A stretch of 64,000 bases of DNA from Spirochaetes bacterium GWB1_60_80. Lineage in GTDB: Bacteria; Spirochaetota; Spirochaetia; Treponematales; UBA12059. The DNA is taken from contig MIAR01000018.1 in the NCBI GenBank assembly GCA_001829185.1, positions 1 to 64,000 on the forward strand, in the 5' to 3' direction. A program made the position numbers and the translations under genes. Positions within the stretch are counted from its first letter, which is position 1. The number at the start of each line of letters is the position of its first letter. Below, piece after piece: positions 15,895-57,626 of the stretch. Under the pieces are notes generated by a model. It had not been told where the DNA came from, searched no databases, and saw nothing but the letters and a program-made list of their open reading frames with translations.

Positions 15895-16031
15895 CTAGCA
15901 GGTTGTTGAAAAAGCCGGTTGCTTTCTCAACAACCTTAACAATTCCTCGCATAGCTTGCGCTATGCTGCGTAATTGTACCGGCATTTGAAGTGTTGAAAA
16001 GCCGCATTCGCGTTTTTCAACACCCTGCTAG
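15895..16031. repeat. 137-bp three-hairpin element, copy 1
   Basis: First of five copies. The ends CTAGCAGG and CCTGCTAG are inverted and similar for about 20 bp inward. Inside are three hairpins: AGGTTGTTGA with TCAACAACCT, GCATAGC with GCTATGC flanked by ACAATT/AATTGT, and GTGTTGAAAA with TTTTCAACAC. This copy differs from copies 2, 3 and 5 by two substitutions. It lies between convergent genes and supplies the last codons and stop of mazG. No coding capacity of its own. Confidence 0.9.
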
Positions 16032-16925
16032 TGTTTTGGCCTCGTCCCAGAAGCGGTCCATCAGCGCCAGTTTGCCTGGTTCCATCGTCTGGCCGCTCTC
16101 GGCCATGCGCTTCTCGACATGGCGGAAACGCTGGCTGAATTTTTCCATGCTGCGGTGCAGGGCCAAGGCCGGATCGACCCGGTGGGTGCGCGCCACATTG
16201 ACCAGCGAAAACAACAAGTCGCCGATTTCGTCCTCTAGTTGGGCGTGTAACGCCTCGGGCGTGGCGGCCGCGTCAGGCTGATCGGCGGGCGGCGCTGACA
16301 TGTCAGCCGCTTCCGCACTGGCTGACGAAACTTGACGCTGTTCCAGGGCCTGGCAGGCGGCGCGGGCCTCGGCCAGCTCTTCGGCCATCTTGTCCCAGGG
16401 GCCGTCGCTGGAGTCCCAGTCGAAGCCGGCCTTGGCGGCCGCCTTCTGCAGCTTATAGGCCCGCTCCAACGGCGGCAGGCCGGCCTTGACGGCGTCGAGG
16501 GCCGAGTCCTTGCGGCGGCGGCCTTCGACCGTTTCCTTGATGTCGTTCCACTGGGCCACCACCTTGTCGGCCGTGTCAGCGCCCGAGGGGCCGCCGAAGA
16601 CATGCGGGTGGCGGCGGACCAGCTTGTCGCAGATGCCGCCGAAGACCTGGTCGACCGTAAAGTCACCCCGTTCTTCGTGCATCACCGCCACCATAGTGGG
16701 CAGCAGGAACAGGTCGCCCAACTCCTCGCGGACATGGTCGCTGTCCGCCTGGTTGATGGCCTCGACCACCTCGTAGGCTTCCTCGATGATGTTGCCGCGC
16801 AGGCTGACCGGGGTCTGCTCGCGGTCCCAGGGGCAGCCGTCGGGCGCGCGCAGGGCCCGGGCGATTGTACACAGCTTGGTGAAGCCAGCCGGCTGGTCAA
16901 GGATGGCTTGTTTGCGGTCGTTCAT
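16017..16925 (-). CDS. mazG: Nucleoside triphosphate pyrophosphohydrolase MazG
   Basis: A 302-residue MazG that hydrolyses NTPs to NMP and pyrophosphate, a house-cleaning role. APDGCPWDREQT at the start, then IIEEAYEVVEAI and REELGDLFLLP form the first metal-binding helix pair, and a second, more diverged copy (DEIGDLLFSLVNVARTHRVDP) follows, as in full-length MazG. An alanine-rich insert (about residues 195-220) separates the halves. The last four residues LAGC and the TGA lie inside the 137-bp element, so the native 3' end has been replaced. It starts 28 nt after rlmB and is probably co-transcribed. Confidence 0.92.
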   Translation of the reverse strand: MNDRKQAILDQPAGFTKLCTIARALRAPDGCPWDREQTPVSLRGNIIEEAYEVVEAINQADSDHVREELGDLFLLPTMVAVMHEERGDFTVDQVFGGICDKLVRRHPHVFGGPSGADTADKVVAQWNDIKETVEGRRRKDSALDAVKAGLPPLERAYKLQKAAAKAGFDWDSSDGPWDKMAEELAEARAACQALEQRQVSSASAEAADMSAPPADQPDAAATPEALHAQLEDEIGDLLFSLVNVARTHRVDPALALHRSMEKFSQRFRHVEKRMAESGQTMEPGKLALMDRFWDEAKTLAGC

Positions 16926-17745: not shown

Positions 17746-17882
17746 CTAGCAGGGTGTTGAAAAACGCGGATGCGGCTTTTCAACACTTCAAAAGCCGGTA
17801 CAATTACGCAGCATAGCGCAAGCTATGCGAGGAATTGTTAAGGTTGTTGAGAAAGCAACCGGCTTTTTCAACAACCTGCTAG
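17746..17882. repeat. 137-bp three-hairpin element, copy 2 (reverse orientation)
   Basis: Identical to copies 3 and 5 and inverted relative to copy 1. It lies between the cytidylate-kinase-like gene, whose TAG stop is the element's own CTAG end, and the start of rlmB. Here it sits between two same-strand genes and may affect read-through. Confidence 0.9.
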
Positions 17883-18700
17883 GGCATCACGGCAAATTCC
17901 TGGACAATCTGGATGGCATTTTCGACGTCAACGACGCCGGGCACCTTCCGTGCGGCGCTGATAGCGGCCTCGATGGCGCCTTGGGTGTTGGCCACGCCGT
18001 GCAGAGTAACCTTGGTGCCGGCCACTTCCGCTTCCAGGAAATGGATGGGAATATGTTGGTGGTAGATTAGCTCGCTGATCAGCTGCCGGCCCAGGTTCAA
18101 CTCGGCCAGCCGTTTGGCGCAGGCCGCAGTACTGTCCGGCGTAACCAGCAGCTGGCGCAGGCGATCGATGACGGCGGCGGCGGCGGCCGGGGGCGTCCAT
18201 TCTGAATTGATGGTCAGGTGGTAGTTGTTCGGATCCAGCCAGTTCAGATTGAAGAAGTAGTCGTAGAAACCCTTGCGGTCGTGGTCCTGCTGCTTAAGTA
18301 GGTGCTGGGCGTGGCGCGCGTCGCAGGAAAAGCGGGTGATGATGTTGCGCAGGCGGAAGTCGTAGGCTGCGTCCAGCCGGATTTTCAGCACACTCGGCAG
18401 GCCGCTGAAAAGCGCCAAGGCGCCCCGGCCAACGATGATGCAGTCGCCCTTGATGGCCTCGGCGTACAGCACCGAAGTCAGGTAGTGCAGGTAGTCGTCG
18501 CGGTCTTGGCTGAGCGAGGCCCAGAAGCCCGGTTTCTTCTCGTCGTAGCGCTCACGGACCCCGGGCTTGAGACCGCGTTCAGCCATCAGCTGCTCGATGT
18601 GATCCTTGTCGAACAGGCGGTACCCGGTCAGCTTGGCCAATTCGGTGCCGGTCTCGTCACCTAGCGCTCCGAAGGCCCTGGCGATGCAGATTACTGACAT
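17879..18700 (-). CDS. Cytidylate kinase-like domain fused to BON domain
   Basis: A 273-residue protein. Residues 1-200 match the cytidylate kinase-like family (VICIARAFGALGDETGTELA in place of a standard P-loop start, GYRLFDKDHI, CIIVGRGALALF, LKIRLDA). The C-terminal 75 residues form a BON domain (VAGTKVTLHGVANTQGAIEAA, KVPGVVDVENAI), more usual in periplasmic or membrane-associated proteins; no signal peptide is present here. The combination suggests a kinase with a ligand- or membrane-binding regulatory module. GGAGGATAAT before ATG 18700 fixes the start. The stop codon is the end of the 137-bp element. Confidence 0.75.
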   Translation of the reverse strand: MSVICIARAFGALGDETGTELAKLTGYRLFDKDHIEQLMAERGLKPGVRERYDEKKPGFWASLSQDRDDYLHYLTSVLYAEAIKGDCIIVGRGALALFSGLPSVLKIRLDAAYDFRLRNIITRFSCDARHAQHLLKQQDHDRKGFYDYFFNLNWLDPNNYHLTINSEWTPPAAAAAVIDRLRQLLVTPDSTAACAKRLAELNLGRQLISELIYHQHIPIHFLEAEVAGTKVTLHGVANTQGAIEAAISAARKVPGVVDVENAIQIVQEFAVMP

Positions 18701-18880
18701 ATTATCCTCCTTGTCGCGGCCGATTAGCCGCCCCGCGCTTAGCGCCGCGTGCCCCTTGGCGAATAGGTTACCGGATAGATCCGAGCCTGTGCTTCGCTCC
18801 ACGTTCAACATAGGACTTTGCCGCCAGCTTGTCAAATTCGCGGGCGGACAGGGTGTCTTCCCGTTCGGCGTTGGCCGTGC

Positions 18881-18886
18881 TATAAC
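18881..18886 (+). promoter_or_regulatory. Probable -10 box for leaderless transcription
   Basis: TATAAC ends 6 nt before ATG 18893 and there is no ribosome-binding site. No clear -35 is seen 16-18 bp upstream. The geometry is the same as at 10404 and 20468. Confidence 0.45.
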
Positions 18887-18892
18887 CGTGCT

Positions 18893-19834
18893 ATGAACCA
18901 CACGGGCGAACTGGCGGCCTTCGGCACCGCCATCTGCTGGACCTTGTCGGCCATCTTTTTCGAGCGCGCCTCCAAGCGCATTTCGGTGCTGGCCGTGAAT
19001 CTTTTCAAGCTCATTTTGTCCTTCGGCTTCCTGGTGGTCACCGCCACCATCCTGCGCGGCATCCCGTTTCCGACTGATGCCCCGCCGCGGGCCTGGCTGT
19101 TCCTGACTATCTCCGGGGTGGTAGGCTTCGTCATCACCGACTTCTTCCTGTTTACCGCCTACAAGACCATCGGCAGCCGCGTCTCCAGCCTGTTCCTGGC
19201 CCTGTCGCCGACCATCACCGCCCTTCTGGGCTTCATCTTCCTGGGCGAGCGCCTGGGCTGGCGCGGCCTGGTGGGCATGGGCATGGTGATCTCAGGCATC
19301 CTGGTTACGGTGGTGGCCAAGGGCGACCTCAAGATTGCCGGCCGCAAGGTGTCCGGCCTGCCGCCGGAGCACGGCGACCTGCGCCCGGCCCAGCTGTCCA
19401 AGGTCGACCGGCGCGGCTACCTATTCGCCTTCCTGGCCTGCATCGGCCAAGCCATCGGCATGATCCTGACCAAGCATGGCCTGCAGGACTACAACCCGGT
19501 GGCCGGCTCGACCATCCGCTCGCTGGCCGGCGTCGGCGGTTTCCTGGTCTTCGGCTTCCTGACCGACCGCGGCCGATCCTTTACGACCGCCCTTAAGGAC
19601 AAGACCGCCCTCAAATTCACCTTCCTGGGCGCCATCGTCGGCCCCTTCCTGGGCGTCACCTTGTCGCTCTTCGCCATGCAGCGCACCCAGGCCGGCGTGG
19701 TCTCCACCCTGATCGGCCTGACGCCGGTGCTGATTATCCCGCCGTCCATCCTGTTATTCAAGCAGAAGGTCAAACCAGCCGAAATCGGCGGCGCCCTGCT
19801 GGCGGTAGCCGGCTCGGCCGTGTTTTTTTTGTAG
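18893..19834 (+). CDS. DMT-superfamily (EamA) transporter
   Basis: A 313-residue inner-membrane protein with ten hydrophobic segments in two EamA repeats (FGTAICWTLSAIFFERASKR..., YLFAFLACIGQAIGMILTKHG...). Each repeat ends with the usual small-residue helix (LGERLGWRGLVGMGMVISGI; KPAEIGGALLAVAGSAVFFL). Members export metabolites or amino acids; the substrate is unknown. ATG 18893 has a TATAAC just upstream and no Shine-Dalgarno sequence. Confidence 0.88.
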   Translation: MNHTGELAAFGTAICWTLSAIFFERASKRISVLAVNLFKLILSFGFLVVTATILRGIPFPTDAPPRAWLFLTISGVVGFVITDFFLFTAYKTIGSRVSSLFLALSPTITALLGFIFLGERLGWRGLVGMGMVISGILVTVVAKGDLKIAGRKVSGLPPEHGDLRPAQLSKVDRRGYLFAFLACIGQAIGMILTKHGLQDYNPVAGSTIRSLAGVGGFLVFGFLTDRGRSFTTALKDKTALKFTFLGAIVGPFLGVTLSLFAMQRTQAGVVSTLIGLTPVLIIPPSILLFKQKVKPAEIGGALLAVAGSAVFFL

Positions 19835-20221: not shown

Positions 20222-20306
20222 ACGGTCAGACCCTGCCGTGCGATGGCGCTGTGCGGTTTGAAAAAAGTCAAATACCGCGCCAGATTATCTTGGGTGGCCG
20301 CGACAC

Positions 20307-20374
20307 CGCGGGTGGCGCTACAAAAACAAGACCATGGTACATGGCCTTGTTTTTGTAGCGCCAGGCCCCGCGTC
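20307..20374. repeat. Conserved-arm hairpin element A
   Basis: Left arm CGCGGGTGGCGC (20307-20318) and right arm GCGCCAGGCCCCGCGTC (20358-20374) are base-for-base the same as in the element at 26858-26927. They enclose a different, near-perfect palindrome (TACAAAAACAAG with CTTGTTTTTGTA, inner CCATG with CATGG). The whole can form a 49-nt stem-loop with an extra-helical GGC on the right side. Confidence 0.75.
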
Positions 20375-20444
20375 GAGGCCTCCTAAGGCAAGCCTGCGCT
20401 CTTGTTGGGCATATTTCTTAAAGCCGCTTAGCTCCAAAAAAAAC

Positions 20445-28828: not shown

Positions 28829-28965
28829 CTAGCAGGTTGTTGAAAAAGCCGGTTGCTTTCTCAACAACCTTAACAATTCCTCGCATAGCTTGCGCTATGC
28901 TGCGTAATTGTACCGGCTTTTGAAGTGTTGAAAAGCCGCATCCGCGTTTTTCAACACCCTGCTAG
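28829..28965. repeat. 137-bp three-hairpin element, copy 3
   Basis: Identical in sequence to copies 2 and 5 and in the orientation of copy 1. It lies between two same-direction genes (lipoprotein and RNase Z). It also has a long-range 10-bp match, AAAAGCCGGT in hairpin 1 with ACCGGCTTTT between hairpins 2 and 3, so alternative folds are possible. Confidence 0.9.
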
Positions 28966-34476: not shown

Positions 34477-34613
34477 TTAGCAGGTTGTTGAAAAAGCCGG
34501 TTGCTTTCTCAACAACCTTAACAATTCCTCGCATAGCTTGCGCTATGCTGCGTAATTGTACCGGCTTTTGAAGTGTTGAAAAGCCGCATCCGCGTTTTTC
34601 AACACCCTGTTAG
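34477..34613. repeat. 137-bp three-hairpin element, copy 4
   Basis: In the orientation of copies 1 and 3, with two changes near its ends (first base T; right end CCTGTTAG). It lies between convergent genes and provides the TAA stop of the minus-strand gene. Confidence 0.9.
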
Positions 34614-36235
34614 TGGTTGGTGAGGAATGAGCGGTATTTTTCGGGGTCGGGGCGGAAGGCCATGATGTGGGTGTCGCGCTCGATGCGGGCCTTGCGCAGG
34701 GCGACCAGCGCTTCGGCGATGACGCGCTCGGCGTCGACGATGCGGCCCGACCGGGAACTCAAGCCCATGAATACTTCCAGGTACTTGAGTTGGCTGGTCC
34801 GGTCCTGGATGACGAAGGTCAGCTTTTTGATAAGTTCCTCGGTATGGCGCATGGTCTCGTCGATGTCGCTGTTGGGCAGCACCACCGCTACGCCGTCCTC
34901 GCCGAACGCGAAGCTCAGGTCCTTAAAATTGAAGAAGTCGCGCACCGTGGCCGTGAATGTTTCGTAATCGAGTGAATATTTCTTGACGCTGTCCCAGGAG
35001 GCAAGCAGCAGGACCAGGTCCTGTTCGAAGGTCGCCGCCCGGCGCAGTTCGGCGTTGAGCCGCTCGCGCAGGTAGGATTCCCAGCACAGGCCGCTGCCTG
35101 GATCGTACAGGCCTTTGGGGCCGCCGATATCTTCCTCGACTACCGGGATGCGTTTCGGGGCGGGCTGGTCGCTAGGGCTGGCCGGCGTCGACGCGACGGA
35201 ATCGGCGCGCGTCGACGCCAGGTTGGGGTGCGGCTCGCTGATGGCTAGCCCGTCATCCTGGCCGTTATTGGCGACGGGCTCGGCCAGCGCCAGCACGTCC
35301 TCGATGTCGCCGTCCAAGTAGGGCAGGTCGGGTAAGGATTCATCGGTCGCGGTGGCGGCGGCGTCGGTGCTTAGGTCGACGCCGTTGGCGACCGCCGTGG
35401 CCGTTAGGTCGGCGACGGCCAGGCCGCTGGCGGGCGAGTCTGGCTGGCTGGGCGCTGTTGTCTCGGACACGGCTGTCGCGGCTGGGGTGGCGGCCGCCGC
35501 CAGGCTAGGGTCGGCCAGGCTGACCGCGCTGCCCTGGTCGTCCGTGAGGGCCTTATTGGGAACGGTGGTCTCGCTGTCGGTGGTGGCTGCAGCCGGTTGG
35601 TCAGCCAGTTGGTCGGTTGGATGGTTGATCCTGCTATCGCTCGGCACGGGACGCGGCGCGGCGTTTGTCAGCTCGATAGTCGGAACCAGCTTGACCGGCG
35701 TCAGATCGGGCCGCGGGCTAACCAAGAGGGCGGCGGCGAGGCCGATGGATAGCAGCAGGAGGCCGACCAAGGTCTCCAACAAGGCGCGGAAGACTTGTTC
35801 CTGGCTGACGGTGACATAGAGCGCCTCAAGCTGGAGCCCGCCGGGCAGGAGCGTGGAAAAACGGCTGGTGGAAAAGGCTGGGGCGGTAAACTGGTCGGCT
35901 GGTCGGCCGTCGGCGTCGCTAGAAGTCAGGGGCAGGAAAGGCGAATCGAGCGGGAGGGCATACACCAGGCCTTGTTCGCTGGCGCGCACCGTGATGGCCA
36001 GGAGGCGATGCTCGGTCTGGAAGAATTGCCGGCTGTGCTGCTGCCAGGCTTGGTCGGCCACGGCGCTGGGGTGCGCCAAGAGGCGCTGGCCGGCGCTCTG
36101 TAGCGCCAGGAAGCTGCGTTGGGCGTACAACTCGCCCTGGAAGCGGTTACTGGCGATGTGGAGCGTCGGCCAGGCCAGGCTGGCGGCTAGTATCAAGCTA
36201 CCGCATAACAGGGCCACTATTGTTGATGACTTCAT
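34610..36235 (-). CDS. Membrane protein with degenerate GGDEF domain
   Basis: A 541-residue protein: a membrane helix at residues 5-25, an extracytoplasmic region to about 155, a second helix (LLETLVGLLLLSIGLAAALLV), a 200-residue Ala/Thr/Asp/Pro-rich low-complexity linker, then a C-terminal GGDEF-like fold (about 385-541) in which the signature is FGEDGVAVVLPN. The catalytic GGDEF is lost, so diguanylate cyclase activity is unlikely. It may bind GTP or c-di-GMP or serve as an adaptor. TATAAT ends 8 nt before the ATG and no ribosome-binding site is seen. The stop codon comes from the 137-bp element. Confidence 0.75.
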   Translation of the reverse strand: MKSSTIVALLCGSLILAASLAWPTLHIASNRFQGELYAQRSFLALQSAGQRLLAHPSAVADQAWQQHSRQFFQTEHRLLAITVRASEQGLVYALPLDSPFLPLTSSDADGRPADQFTAPAFSTSRFSTLLPGGLQLEALYVTVSQEQVFRALLETLVGLLLLSIGLAAALLVSPRPDLTPVKLVPTIELTNAAPRPVPSDSRINHPTDQLADQPAAATTDSETTVPNKALTDDQGSAVSLADPSLAAAATPAATAVSETTAPSQPDSPASGLAVADLTATAVANGVDLSTDAAATATDESLPDLPYLDGDIEDVLALAEPVANNGQDDGLAISEPHPNLASTRADSVASTPASPSDQPAPKRIPVVEEDIGGPKGLYDPGSGLCWESYLRERLNAELRRAATFEQDLVLLLASWDSVKKYSLDYETFTATVRDFFNFKDLSFAFGEDGVAVVLPNSDIDETMRHTEELIKKLTFVIQDRTSQLKYLEVFMGLSSRSGRIVDAERVIAEALVALRKARIERDTHIMAFRPDPEKYRSFLTNH

Positions 36236-56093: not shown

Positions 56094-56329
56094 AGGAGCC
56101 TGTCGGGCTTTGGAACGCGAAGAATAATTGTCAGGAAAAATTGGGAGACAAATTTGATGAATCCAGTAGCTCGGGAGATTTTTTACGCTTTTTGGCCGAT
56201 CTCAGCGCCCCATGGCGTAAAATGGGTTTGTCAATCGGGCCATACAGGAAGTATGACCCTCAATCCTCACCAATTTTCCACTCGTGGCTCGCTTTCGCTG
56301 GGCCAAAATCCAAAGCCCGACAGACTCCT
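56094..56329. mobile_element. 236-bp element with 21-bp terminal inverted repeats (IS-derived MITE?)
   Basis: Positions 56094-56114 and 56309-56329 are inverted repeats of 21 bp with one mismatch; the shared core is CTGTCGGGCTTTGGA. Such ends are typical of insertion sequences, but no transposase fits inside, so it is probably a non-autonomous derivative or the two ends of a deleted IS. Its right end overlaps the 137-bp element copy 5 by two bases. The interior is A+T-richer than the flanking permease gene. Confidence 0.6.
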
Positions 56330-56464
56330 AGCAGGGTGTTGAAAAACGCGGATGCGGCTTTTCAACACTTCAAAAGCCGGTACAATTACGCAGCATAGCG
56401 CAAGCTATGCGAGGAATTGTTAAGGTTGTTGAGAAAGCAACCGGCTTTTTCAACAACCTGCTAG
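56328..56464. repeat. 137-bp three-hairpin element, copy 5 (reverse orientation)
   Basis: Identical to copies 2 and 3. It lies at the junction between G+C-rich DNA and the lower-G+C chemosensory region, touching the 236-bp inverted-repeat element on its left. The response-regulator frame runs through most of it. Confidence 0.9.
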
Positions 56465-57626
56465 TGCTCTTTTGATACGCGGGCAGCTGGATTTCGATCC
56501 GACCGGTATCAGGCTCTACTAGTTCAATTGCCACCTTGCCATCTAAAATAGTAATGATTTTTACGGCCAACGGAAGGGCCAGGCCTAATTCCCGGCCAGC
56601 TTCCGACGGATGGATGGCATTAGTAGTTTGGAAGAGTGTGTACATTGCTTTGTTGGAGGTGGTTTGCCTAGTGAATATTATTTCTAATATCAGGATCTGG
56701 CCCTCAAGTCGGCTGCTCAGTCTCAAGGTGCTAGCGGACTGGGCGAGAATGATGGCGGCTTGAAAAATTGTGCTGACTGCCTGGGTAAGCAGATCTAGGT
56801 CGCCTGCCACGACGTTGCTGCTCATAGCATTATTTTCCCAGACCAGACTCTTGGCCTTCGCCGCATTGTCCATTTTAGCGATGATGTTCTGGATCATCGA
56901 TGATATTATCACCGGCTGAGCATCATACTGGCCCCACCAGTGATTGGTCTCAGCCATTATGAGAGCATTGTTGGTGGTTTGGAGCAATTGCTCTTCACTT
57001 TGCTTGTACCGTTCGACAAGGACGGCTTGCTCCTTTGGGTGTTTGTCGAGGGAGTTTATTACCGATCTTGCCTGCTCAATCAGGCCCTCACCAGGCGCCC
57101 ACAGTGATTTGTAGATGATCTGGAGATAATCATACATGGCTGAACTCTGGGTTTTGAGATGGTGATGAGCCTCCACCAACTGATTGGATCGTTTGGTGAC
57201 CAAGGTTTCCAAGTGCTCGTTGTGCTCTTGAAGTAGGCGGCGCGCATAGTACAACTCTAGGTGGTTCGCTACCCGAACGCGCACCAAAGCCAGGCTGAAT
57301 GGCTTGGTGATGTAGTCCACAGCGCCTAATTGTAGGCCTTTGGCCTCGCTTTCGCTGGAATTTAATGAAGTCAGGAAGATGATAGGTATTTGTTTGGTGG
57401 ACTCATCTTTCTTCAACTGGCGACAGACTTCGTAGCCGTCCAGGCTGGGCATCATGATGTCCAGGAGGATCAAGTCTATTGGCGTGGAACGGACGATGTT
57501 TAGACAGTGCAACCCGTTGGTGGCCACCCTGATCTCATAGCCGTCCGATTCCAGCAGTTCTCCCAAGACGCGGAGATTCTCTGGTGTGTCGTCGACAATG
57601 AGGACATTGCCGTTCTGCTTTGTCAT
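56370..57626 (-). CDS. Response regulator with degenerate histidine-kinase-like C-terminus
   Basis: A 418-residue protein. The receiver domain (1-125) is complete: Asp12, Asp13, phospho-acceptor Asp56, Thr86, Lys108. After a coiled-coil (QEHNEHLETLVTKRSNQLVEAHHHL), the C-terminal part resembles a HATPase fold (EAGRELGLALPLAVKIITIL) but lacks a clear N-box, so kinase activity is doubtful. The final residues after QKST are encoded by the 137-bp element and read SRLLKKPV up to NCTGF; the native end is probably lost. GGGAGG precedes ATG 57626, with TATAAT further upstream. Confidence 0.82.
   Translation of the reverse strand: MTKQNGNVLIVDDTPENLRVLGELLESDGYEIRVATNGLHCLNIVRSTPIDLILLDIMMPSLDGYEVCRQLKKDESTKQIPIIFLTSLNSSESEAKGLQLGAVDYITKPFSLALVRVRVANHLELYYARRLLQEHNEHLETLVTKRSNQLVEAHHHLKTQSSAMYDYLQIIYKSLWAPGEGLIEQARSVINSLDKHPKEQAVLVERYKQSEEQLLQTTNNALIMAETNHWWGQYDAQPVIISSMIQNIIAKMDNAAKAKSLVWENNAMSSNVVAGDLDLLTQAVSTIFQAAIILAQSASTLRLSSRLEGQILILEIIFTRQTTSNKAMYTLFQTTNAIHPSEAGRELGLALPLAVKIITILDGKVAIELVEPDTGRIEIQLPAYQKSTSRLLKKPVAFSTTLTIPRIACAMLRNCTGF

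Follow-up and report, generated by a model that had tools for sequence, protein, structure and literature searches.

A recently spread 129-bp element with IS5-type ends and three covarying hairpins in a spirochaete genome

What is the 137-bp repeat that recurs five times in the window, the whole 64-kb stretch of DNA analysed here? An earlier note, made from the letters alone, had placed five copies of this length, with copies 2, 3 and 5 identical and copies 1 and 4 carrying two differences each, and all of this was borne out. Three copies read one way (copy 1, 15895-16031; copy 3, 28829-28965, the reference; copy 4, 34477-34613; + strand) and two the other (copy 2, 17746-17882; copy 5, 56328-56464; - strand). 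We argue that the repeat is very probably a 129-bp non-autonomous element (a MITE) that depends on an IS5-type DDE transposase acting in trans. Recently spread, high-copy MITEs whose ends and target are of the IS5 type are a known kind of element; the new part is that the three hairpins of this one covary across a bacterial family.

The differences between copies reveal where the element ends. Copy 1 differs from the reference at two internal positions. Copy 4 has the interior of copy 3 and differs at C1T and C134T, both in the flanking 4 bp, so that it reads TTAG...TTAG. Elsewhere in the genome, TTAG/TTAG, TTAA/TTAA and CTAA/CTAA pairs likewise surround otherwise identical interiors. Because copies with identical interiors vary in the outer 4 bp nearly always alike on both sides and in direct orientation, where an inverted end would vary as TTAG...CTAA, these bases are a YTAR target-site duplication and lie outside the element. 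What moves is a unit of 129 bp, which contains no transposase gene. In the window it occupies 15899-16027 (copy 1, between CTAG duplications at 15895-15898 and 16028-16031), 17750-17878 (copy 2, CTAG), 28833-28961 (copy 3, CTAG at 28829-28832 and 28962-28965), 34481-34609 (copy 4, TTAG at 34477-34480 and 34610-34613) and 56332-56460 (copy 5, CTAG). A direct YTAR duplication was present in 68 of the 71 complete copies examined: CTAG/CTAG in 48, a share inflated by the loci having been picked partly by a CTAG-containing search, TTAG/TTAG in 8, TTAA/TTAA in 8 and CTAA/CTAA in 4, leaving 3 mixed. One of these three hybrids lies inside a tandemly repeated segment (L046, 1052-2024, G000:C11), where each 422-bp unit holds one element and the hybrid duplications stand at the junctions. 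Copies in related genomes are likewise flanked by YTAR duplications.

Both ends of the element read CAGG[T/G]TGTTGAAAAA. In copy 3 the left terminal inverted repeat (TIR), CAGGTTGTTGAAAAA, lies at 28833-28847 (+) and the right one, CAGGGTGTTGAAAAA, at 28947-28961 (-). Allowing two mismatches, we counted 15 occurrences of the TIR-like word in the window against 0.18 expected. The repeat had been described as fitting a TA-targeting MITE; a TA-related MITE it is, with the amendments that the target is a 4-bp YTAR site that is duplicated and that the unit is 129 bp long.

The repeat extends far beyond the window. In the genome of the uncultured host (G000), a 3.6-Mb draft in 59 contigs that is 96% complete, we counted 92 + 66 = 158 cores, defined as a 43-base core of hairpins 1-2 with up to three mismatches. 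The density is about one per 23 kb, so five copies in 64 kb is near the genome average. The exact end joined to CTAG occurs 67 + 64 times, and the best 40 BLAST places in the draft are all 100% identical over 137 bp. Compared with the reference, 56 of the 71 complete interiors show no difference, 9 show one and 4 show two. Searches with the element returned no match in plasmid and phage collections and none in Rfam at gathering score; the literature on its end sequences and on a described family likewise yielded nothing.

A same-genus genome (G001) provided empty sites for comparison, and a genome-wide search of it gave no element match. Both window sites for which a comparison was possible, on contigs G001:C50 and G001:C346, lack the element in G001. 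The copy-1 site (G001:C50) reads ...TTAGTGTT..., with a single TTAG. The interval orthologous to copy 4 aligns over the junction without the element, at about 67-73% identity, too diverged for a base-exact junction. Together with the 56 identical interiors, these absences bear out the recent spread that the near-identity of the window copies had suggested, and the expansion in the host genome would most simply be placed after its split from G001.

Relatives of the host carry the same design, mostly at 128-131 bp (G003, G005, G006, G008, G009, G011, G013, G014, G016 and G017), as does a genome from a neighbouring bacterial family (G023). Their copies are often 70-78% identical, and the spread covers about ten genera. 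A covariance-model scan of 296 genomes of the phylum, run with stricter filters, found the element in the host's bacterial family and almost nowhere else (one weak match). One 129-bp sequence in G008 (L240, 2785-2913) has largely unrelated letters and the same three-hairpin layout, with no TIR or YTAR; it is possibly an old, immobile descendant.

Which enzyme might move such an element? E. coli IS5 duplicates Py-T-A-Pu on insertion, most commonly CTAG (PMC5493358, PMC10359306). Outside the spirochaetes we found five full-length insertion sequences (IS) with ends of the type CAGG...TGAA(A/G)AA, in Sinorhizobium, Azospirillum, Acidovorax, Bradyrhizobium and Hyphomicrobiales. The Sinorhizobium type was recovered in an IMG/VR scan as a full IS of about 1.54 kb whose transposase is identical to that of a Sinorhizobium meliloti plasmid copy; it has ends CAGGGTGTTGAAAAAG / CAGGCTGTTGAAGAAG with CTAG on both sides, and its 368-aa product matches NF033581, the IS5 family (E 2.9e-79), with DUF772 and DDE_Tnp_1. 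The Azospirillum IS has CAGGGTGCGGAAAAAGGG ends and TTAG/TTAG, the Acidovorax IS CAGGCCGTTGAAAAA ends and TTAA/TTAA; a genome scan contributed two more, from Bradyrhizobium (CTAG/CTAG) and from Hyphomicrobiales (CTAG/CTAA). The transposases of these four likewise score above the NF033581 cut-off. The earlier note had proposed looking for a full-length IS with the same ends; IS with ends of this kind do exist, in the IS5 family, and all five come from Alpha- or Betaproteobacteria. The known likeness lies in the ends. Ends and target in common with IS5-family IS elsewhere point to an IS5-type partner.

The partner gene was sought in several ways. Profile searches of the host draft genome gave no match to PF01609, PF13751, NF033581 or PF01797 (Y1), and a survey of PF01609, PF13751 and NF033581 across 39 to 294 genomes of the order again placed none in the host. 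Those NF033581 elements of the order that have readable ends carry different ones, GGGCACCTCTAAAAAC, i.e. GGG(C/A)ACCTCTAAAAAC; L183, L187 and L186 are of this kind, and two of them have TTAA beside one end. Searching 39 relatives for TIRs not followed by the MITE sequence returned MITE variants alone and no full IS, and long-range TIR pairs in G014, G005, G003, G006 and G008 enclosed just 129-131 bp elements or diverged copies. These negative results, like the restriction of the matching IS to other phyla, count against an IS5-type partner. Since the draft assembly breaks within copies, contigs C1 and C34 stopping about 93 bases past the element start, it may however lack an IS that is present in several copies.

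The end type itself is widespread. The exact word CTAGCAGGNTGTTGAAAAAG occurs in Nitrospirota, Proteobacteria, Chloroflexi, Planctomycetota and others. For 39 of the 82 matches listed, a partner end lies within less than 500 bp, and nearly all of these 39 show CTAG-like direct repeats, under a pairing rule that itself required at least 3/4 equal bases; in 14 of the 82 the end carries a hairpin. One end type (YTAR, CAGGNTGTTGAAAAA) thus seems to have spread over many phyla as short elements, and hairpin ends, found in some of them only, appear to recur outside the spirochaetes without being obligatory.

Insertion sites within the host follow a clear pattern. With genes from a simple, crude codon-usage caller and the 64-kb window alone as background, 11 of 68 copies lie inside a predicted gene, a position shared by 184 of the window's 242 YTAR sites (p 3e-19). 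Another 21 overlap a stop codon and the remaining 36 are otherwise intergenic (stop-codon versus intergenic placement, p 0.04); convergent gene pairs are enriched around copies (odds ratio 4.3, p 0.003). In the window, copy 1 is found at the 3' end of ORF 16017-16925 (-), and the right duplications of copies 2 and 4 overlap the stop codons of ORFs 17879-18901 (-) and 34610-36235 (-). YTAR holds TAG or TAA or the complement, and at a stop codon the duplication restores it. To account for the placement, no more is needed than purifying selection against insertions into genes and promoters.

Directly next to copy 5 stands another inverted-repeat element, about 230 bp long (window ~56096-56327), with ends GAG[C/T]CTGTCGGGCTTTGGA ... 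TCCAAAGCCCGACAGACTC, and the end word of this neighbour also flanks the 129-bp element at L001, L026, L029 and L055, with a near-match at L061. The longest reading of the ORF at 56370-57626 enters copy 5 by about 95 bp, and the element may supply its C-terminus. Elsewhere in the window, at 20277-20399, we noticed a large imperfect inverted repeat with 60-nt arms, 77% complementary, and a 3-nt loop; it is unrelated to the element.

We then considered the fold. The reference copy (28829-28965) folds far better than shuffled sequences, with z -7.2 as RNA and -7.7 as DNA. Hairpin 1 (28834-28870, +) has the left TIR as its outer arm and TTTCTCAACAACCT as its inner arm; hairpin 2 (28873-28911, +) is central, with two stacked stems and an internal loop CTC/TGCG; hairpin 3 (28925-28957, +) has the right TIR as its outer arm. 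In an alignment of 60 distinct sequences to a covariance model, 92% of cells pair and 43 of 46 pairs show changes on both sides (17/17 in hairpin 1, 13/15 in hairpin 2 and 13/14 in hairpin 3). Double changes fill 364 cells against 106 in shuffles, and the covariation score is 0.380 against 0.115 for shuffles and 0.048-0.072 for slid pairings, the control that weighs most since the alignment is fitted to the structure. End-to-end pairing, by contrast with the hairpins, scores 0.106 against 0.081 for shuffles, with 15 double-change cells against 11: the sequence of the terminal repeats is conserved, with hardly any covariation between the two. Of the cloverleaf proposed for the repeat, the three hairpins therefore stand and the closure by the termini finds little support. 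Strong covariation within hairpins and little end to end imply that each hairpin, the central one included, evolves as its own unit; a transposase is not known to need this central hairpin. A competing 10-bp fold, AAAAGCCGGT with ACCGGCTTTT, had also been proposed. The match is present in the window sub-family, but it is broken in copy 1 (T90A) and its linker is not conserved in relatives, and we rejected it as lacking evolutionary support.

Compensatory change is usually read as proof of a functional RNA. Here the stems hold 48 G-T cells and 89 A-C cells on this strand (24 and 35 in well-paired columns). The lack of a wobble excess argues against RNA-level selection on this strand and fits a DNA-level cause, which these counts, together with the scant covariation between the two ends, make the more likely of the two; we rejected RNA function as the main cause of the covariation.

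A single locus shows the hairpins changing in place. G008 and G013 share an orthologous copy between convergent ORFs, with flanks about 92-95% identical, from which TIRs and YTAR are gone. Its hairpin 1 is CGACCAGATGAAAC...GTTTCATCTGGTCG in one genome and AGGCCGGGTGAGAC...GTTTCACCCGGCCT in the other; four double changes, each compensated, have preserved the 14-bp stem, and one further change gives G-T. Uncompensated changes are found in hairpin 3. The copy adjoins a separate strong hairpin. It is a single locus, and the differences may also stem from recombination in which another copy took the place of the original. In the host, one variant (L250, 1506-1640, G000:C20) has lost its right end and acquired, flanking the loop of hairpin 2 on either side, a new perfect stem of about 20 bp; a foldback template switch would be expected to leave such a product. 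According to a published proposal, hairpins can be both created and mended by template switching (PMC8794818).

How might these observations fit together? An IS5-type DDE transposase, supplied in trans, would recognise the CAGGNTGTTGAAAAA ends and cut at YTAR, mostly CTAG, leaving a 4-bp duplication on each side. Most surviving insertions would be intergenic, above all between convergent genes, and many would lie at stop codons. The hairpins would be maintained at the DNA level, most simply when replication switches templates and one foldback arm is copied from its partner; if transposition requires the ends to be folded, selection may act on them as well. We infer, with belief and doubt evenly balanced, that such DNA-level upkeep, most simply by template switching and perhaps with fold selection in addition, underlies the covariation.

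Template switching is the explanation of the covariation that we favour, and its main rival is a DNA fold needed in transposition. Selection on such a fold would leave much the same pattern, which counts against the template-switching reading. It is possible, though we lean away from it, that the fold itself is selected because the transposase, or else some host factor, depends on hairpin ends and a central hairpin, for example as an extruded cruciform or in single-stranded DNA; arms would then change together, since copies with a broken fold would not move. Covariation across genera extends to all three hairpins and so to the central one too, each end forms a complete hairpin by itself and is thus more than a terminal repeat, and hairpin ends recur in unrelated YTAR MITEs, as in the 14 of 82 listed matches above. 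Yet terminal hairpins are missing from many MITEs that share these ends, so this end type does not depend on folding, and the immobile copy shared by G008 and G013 has compensated changes even without TIRs. More specifically, DDE transposition might act on a folded three-hairpin DNA substrate, with hairpin ends and central hairpin needed for movement; this we consider doubtful. Were it true, compensatory change would uphold the fold, and the terminal repeats would show conservation alone.

A host function after insertion, as transcription terminator, insulator or mRNA-end structure, seems unlikely to be what selects the hairpins. Enrichment at stop codons and between convergent genes would suit it, as would some weak terminator-like matches within copies, but the stems have no excess of G-U over A-C, the 36 of 68 intergenic copies without a stop codon occur in all gene orientations, as simple purifying selection explains, and a strong hairpin distinct from the element is already present next to the G008/G013 copy. 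A family of structured non-coding RNAs spread by gene conversion would account for strong covariation and near-identical copies; it is very improbable given target duplications and absence at syntenic sites, which show transposition, no wobble excess and no Rfam match. Least probable of all is a REP/BIME-type element mobilised by a Y1 (RAYT) transposase, despite its palindromic units, tetranucleotide at the foot and intergenic spread: the host draft genome has no PF01797, both flanking tetranucleotides vary together as a duplication, and the Y1 mechanism (IS200/IS605) is not known to yield one.

The element shows strong compensatory change in mobile DNA with no sign of RNA-level selection, which is unexpected for a passenger element, and in one copy such change goes on in place after loss of the mobile ends. 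One genome holds about 158 near-identical cores, diverged subfamilies occur in about ten genera, and some orthologous copies are shared; the family is thus a natural test bed for distinguishing replication template switching from a DNA fold used in transposition as the cause that keeps the hairpins paired.

Among known systems, the element resembles REP/BIME with RAYT in its palindromic intergenic units and the tetranucleotide at the hairpin foot, and differs in its target-site duplication and in that no Y1 transposase was found in the draft genome. BOX and SPRITE of Streptococcus pneumoniae, compared by their review description only, are also intergenic structured repeats. Their ends and target presumably differ from those of the element. 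With the IS5 family (NF033581 type; IS5 for the target) the element shares a 4-bp YTAR duplication in which CTAG is preferred, and with the Sinorhizobium, Bradyrhizobium and Hyphomicrobiales members the terminal repeats CAGGNTGTTGAARAAG; unlike them, it is 129 bp long, has no transposase gene and no partner found in the genome, and has hairpin ends and a central hairpin. With the bacterial MITEs (PMC10969869) it shares small size, lack of coding capacity, intergenic placement, TIRs, target duplication and many near-identical copies. Unlike MITEs in general, it keeps a near-constant length of 128-131 bp, and its three hairpins covary separately across about ten genera while its terminal repeats hardly covary.
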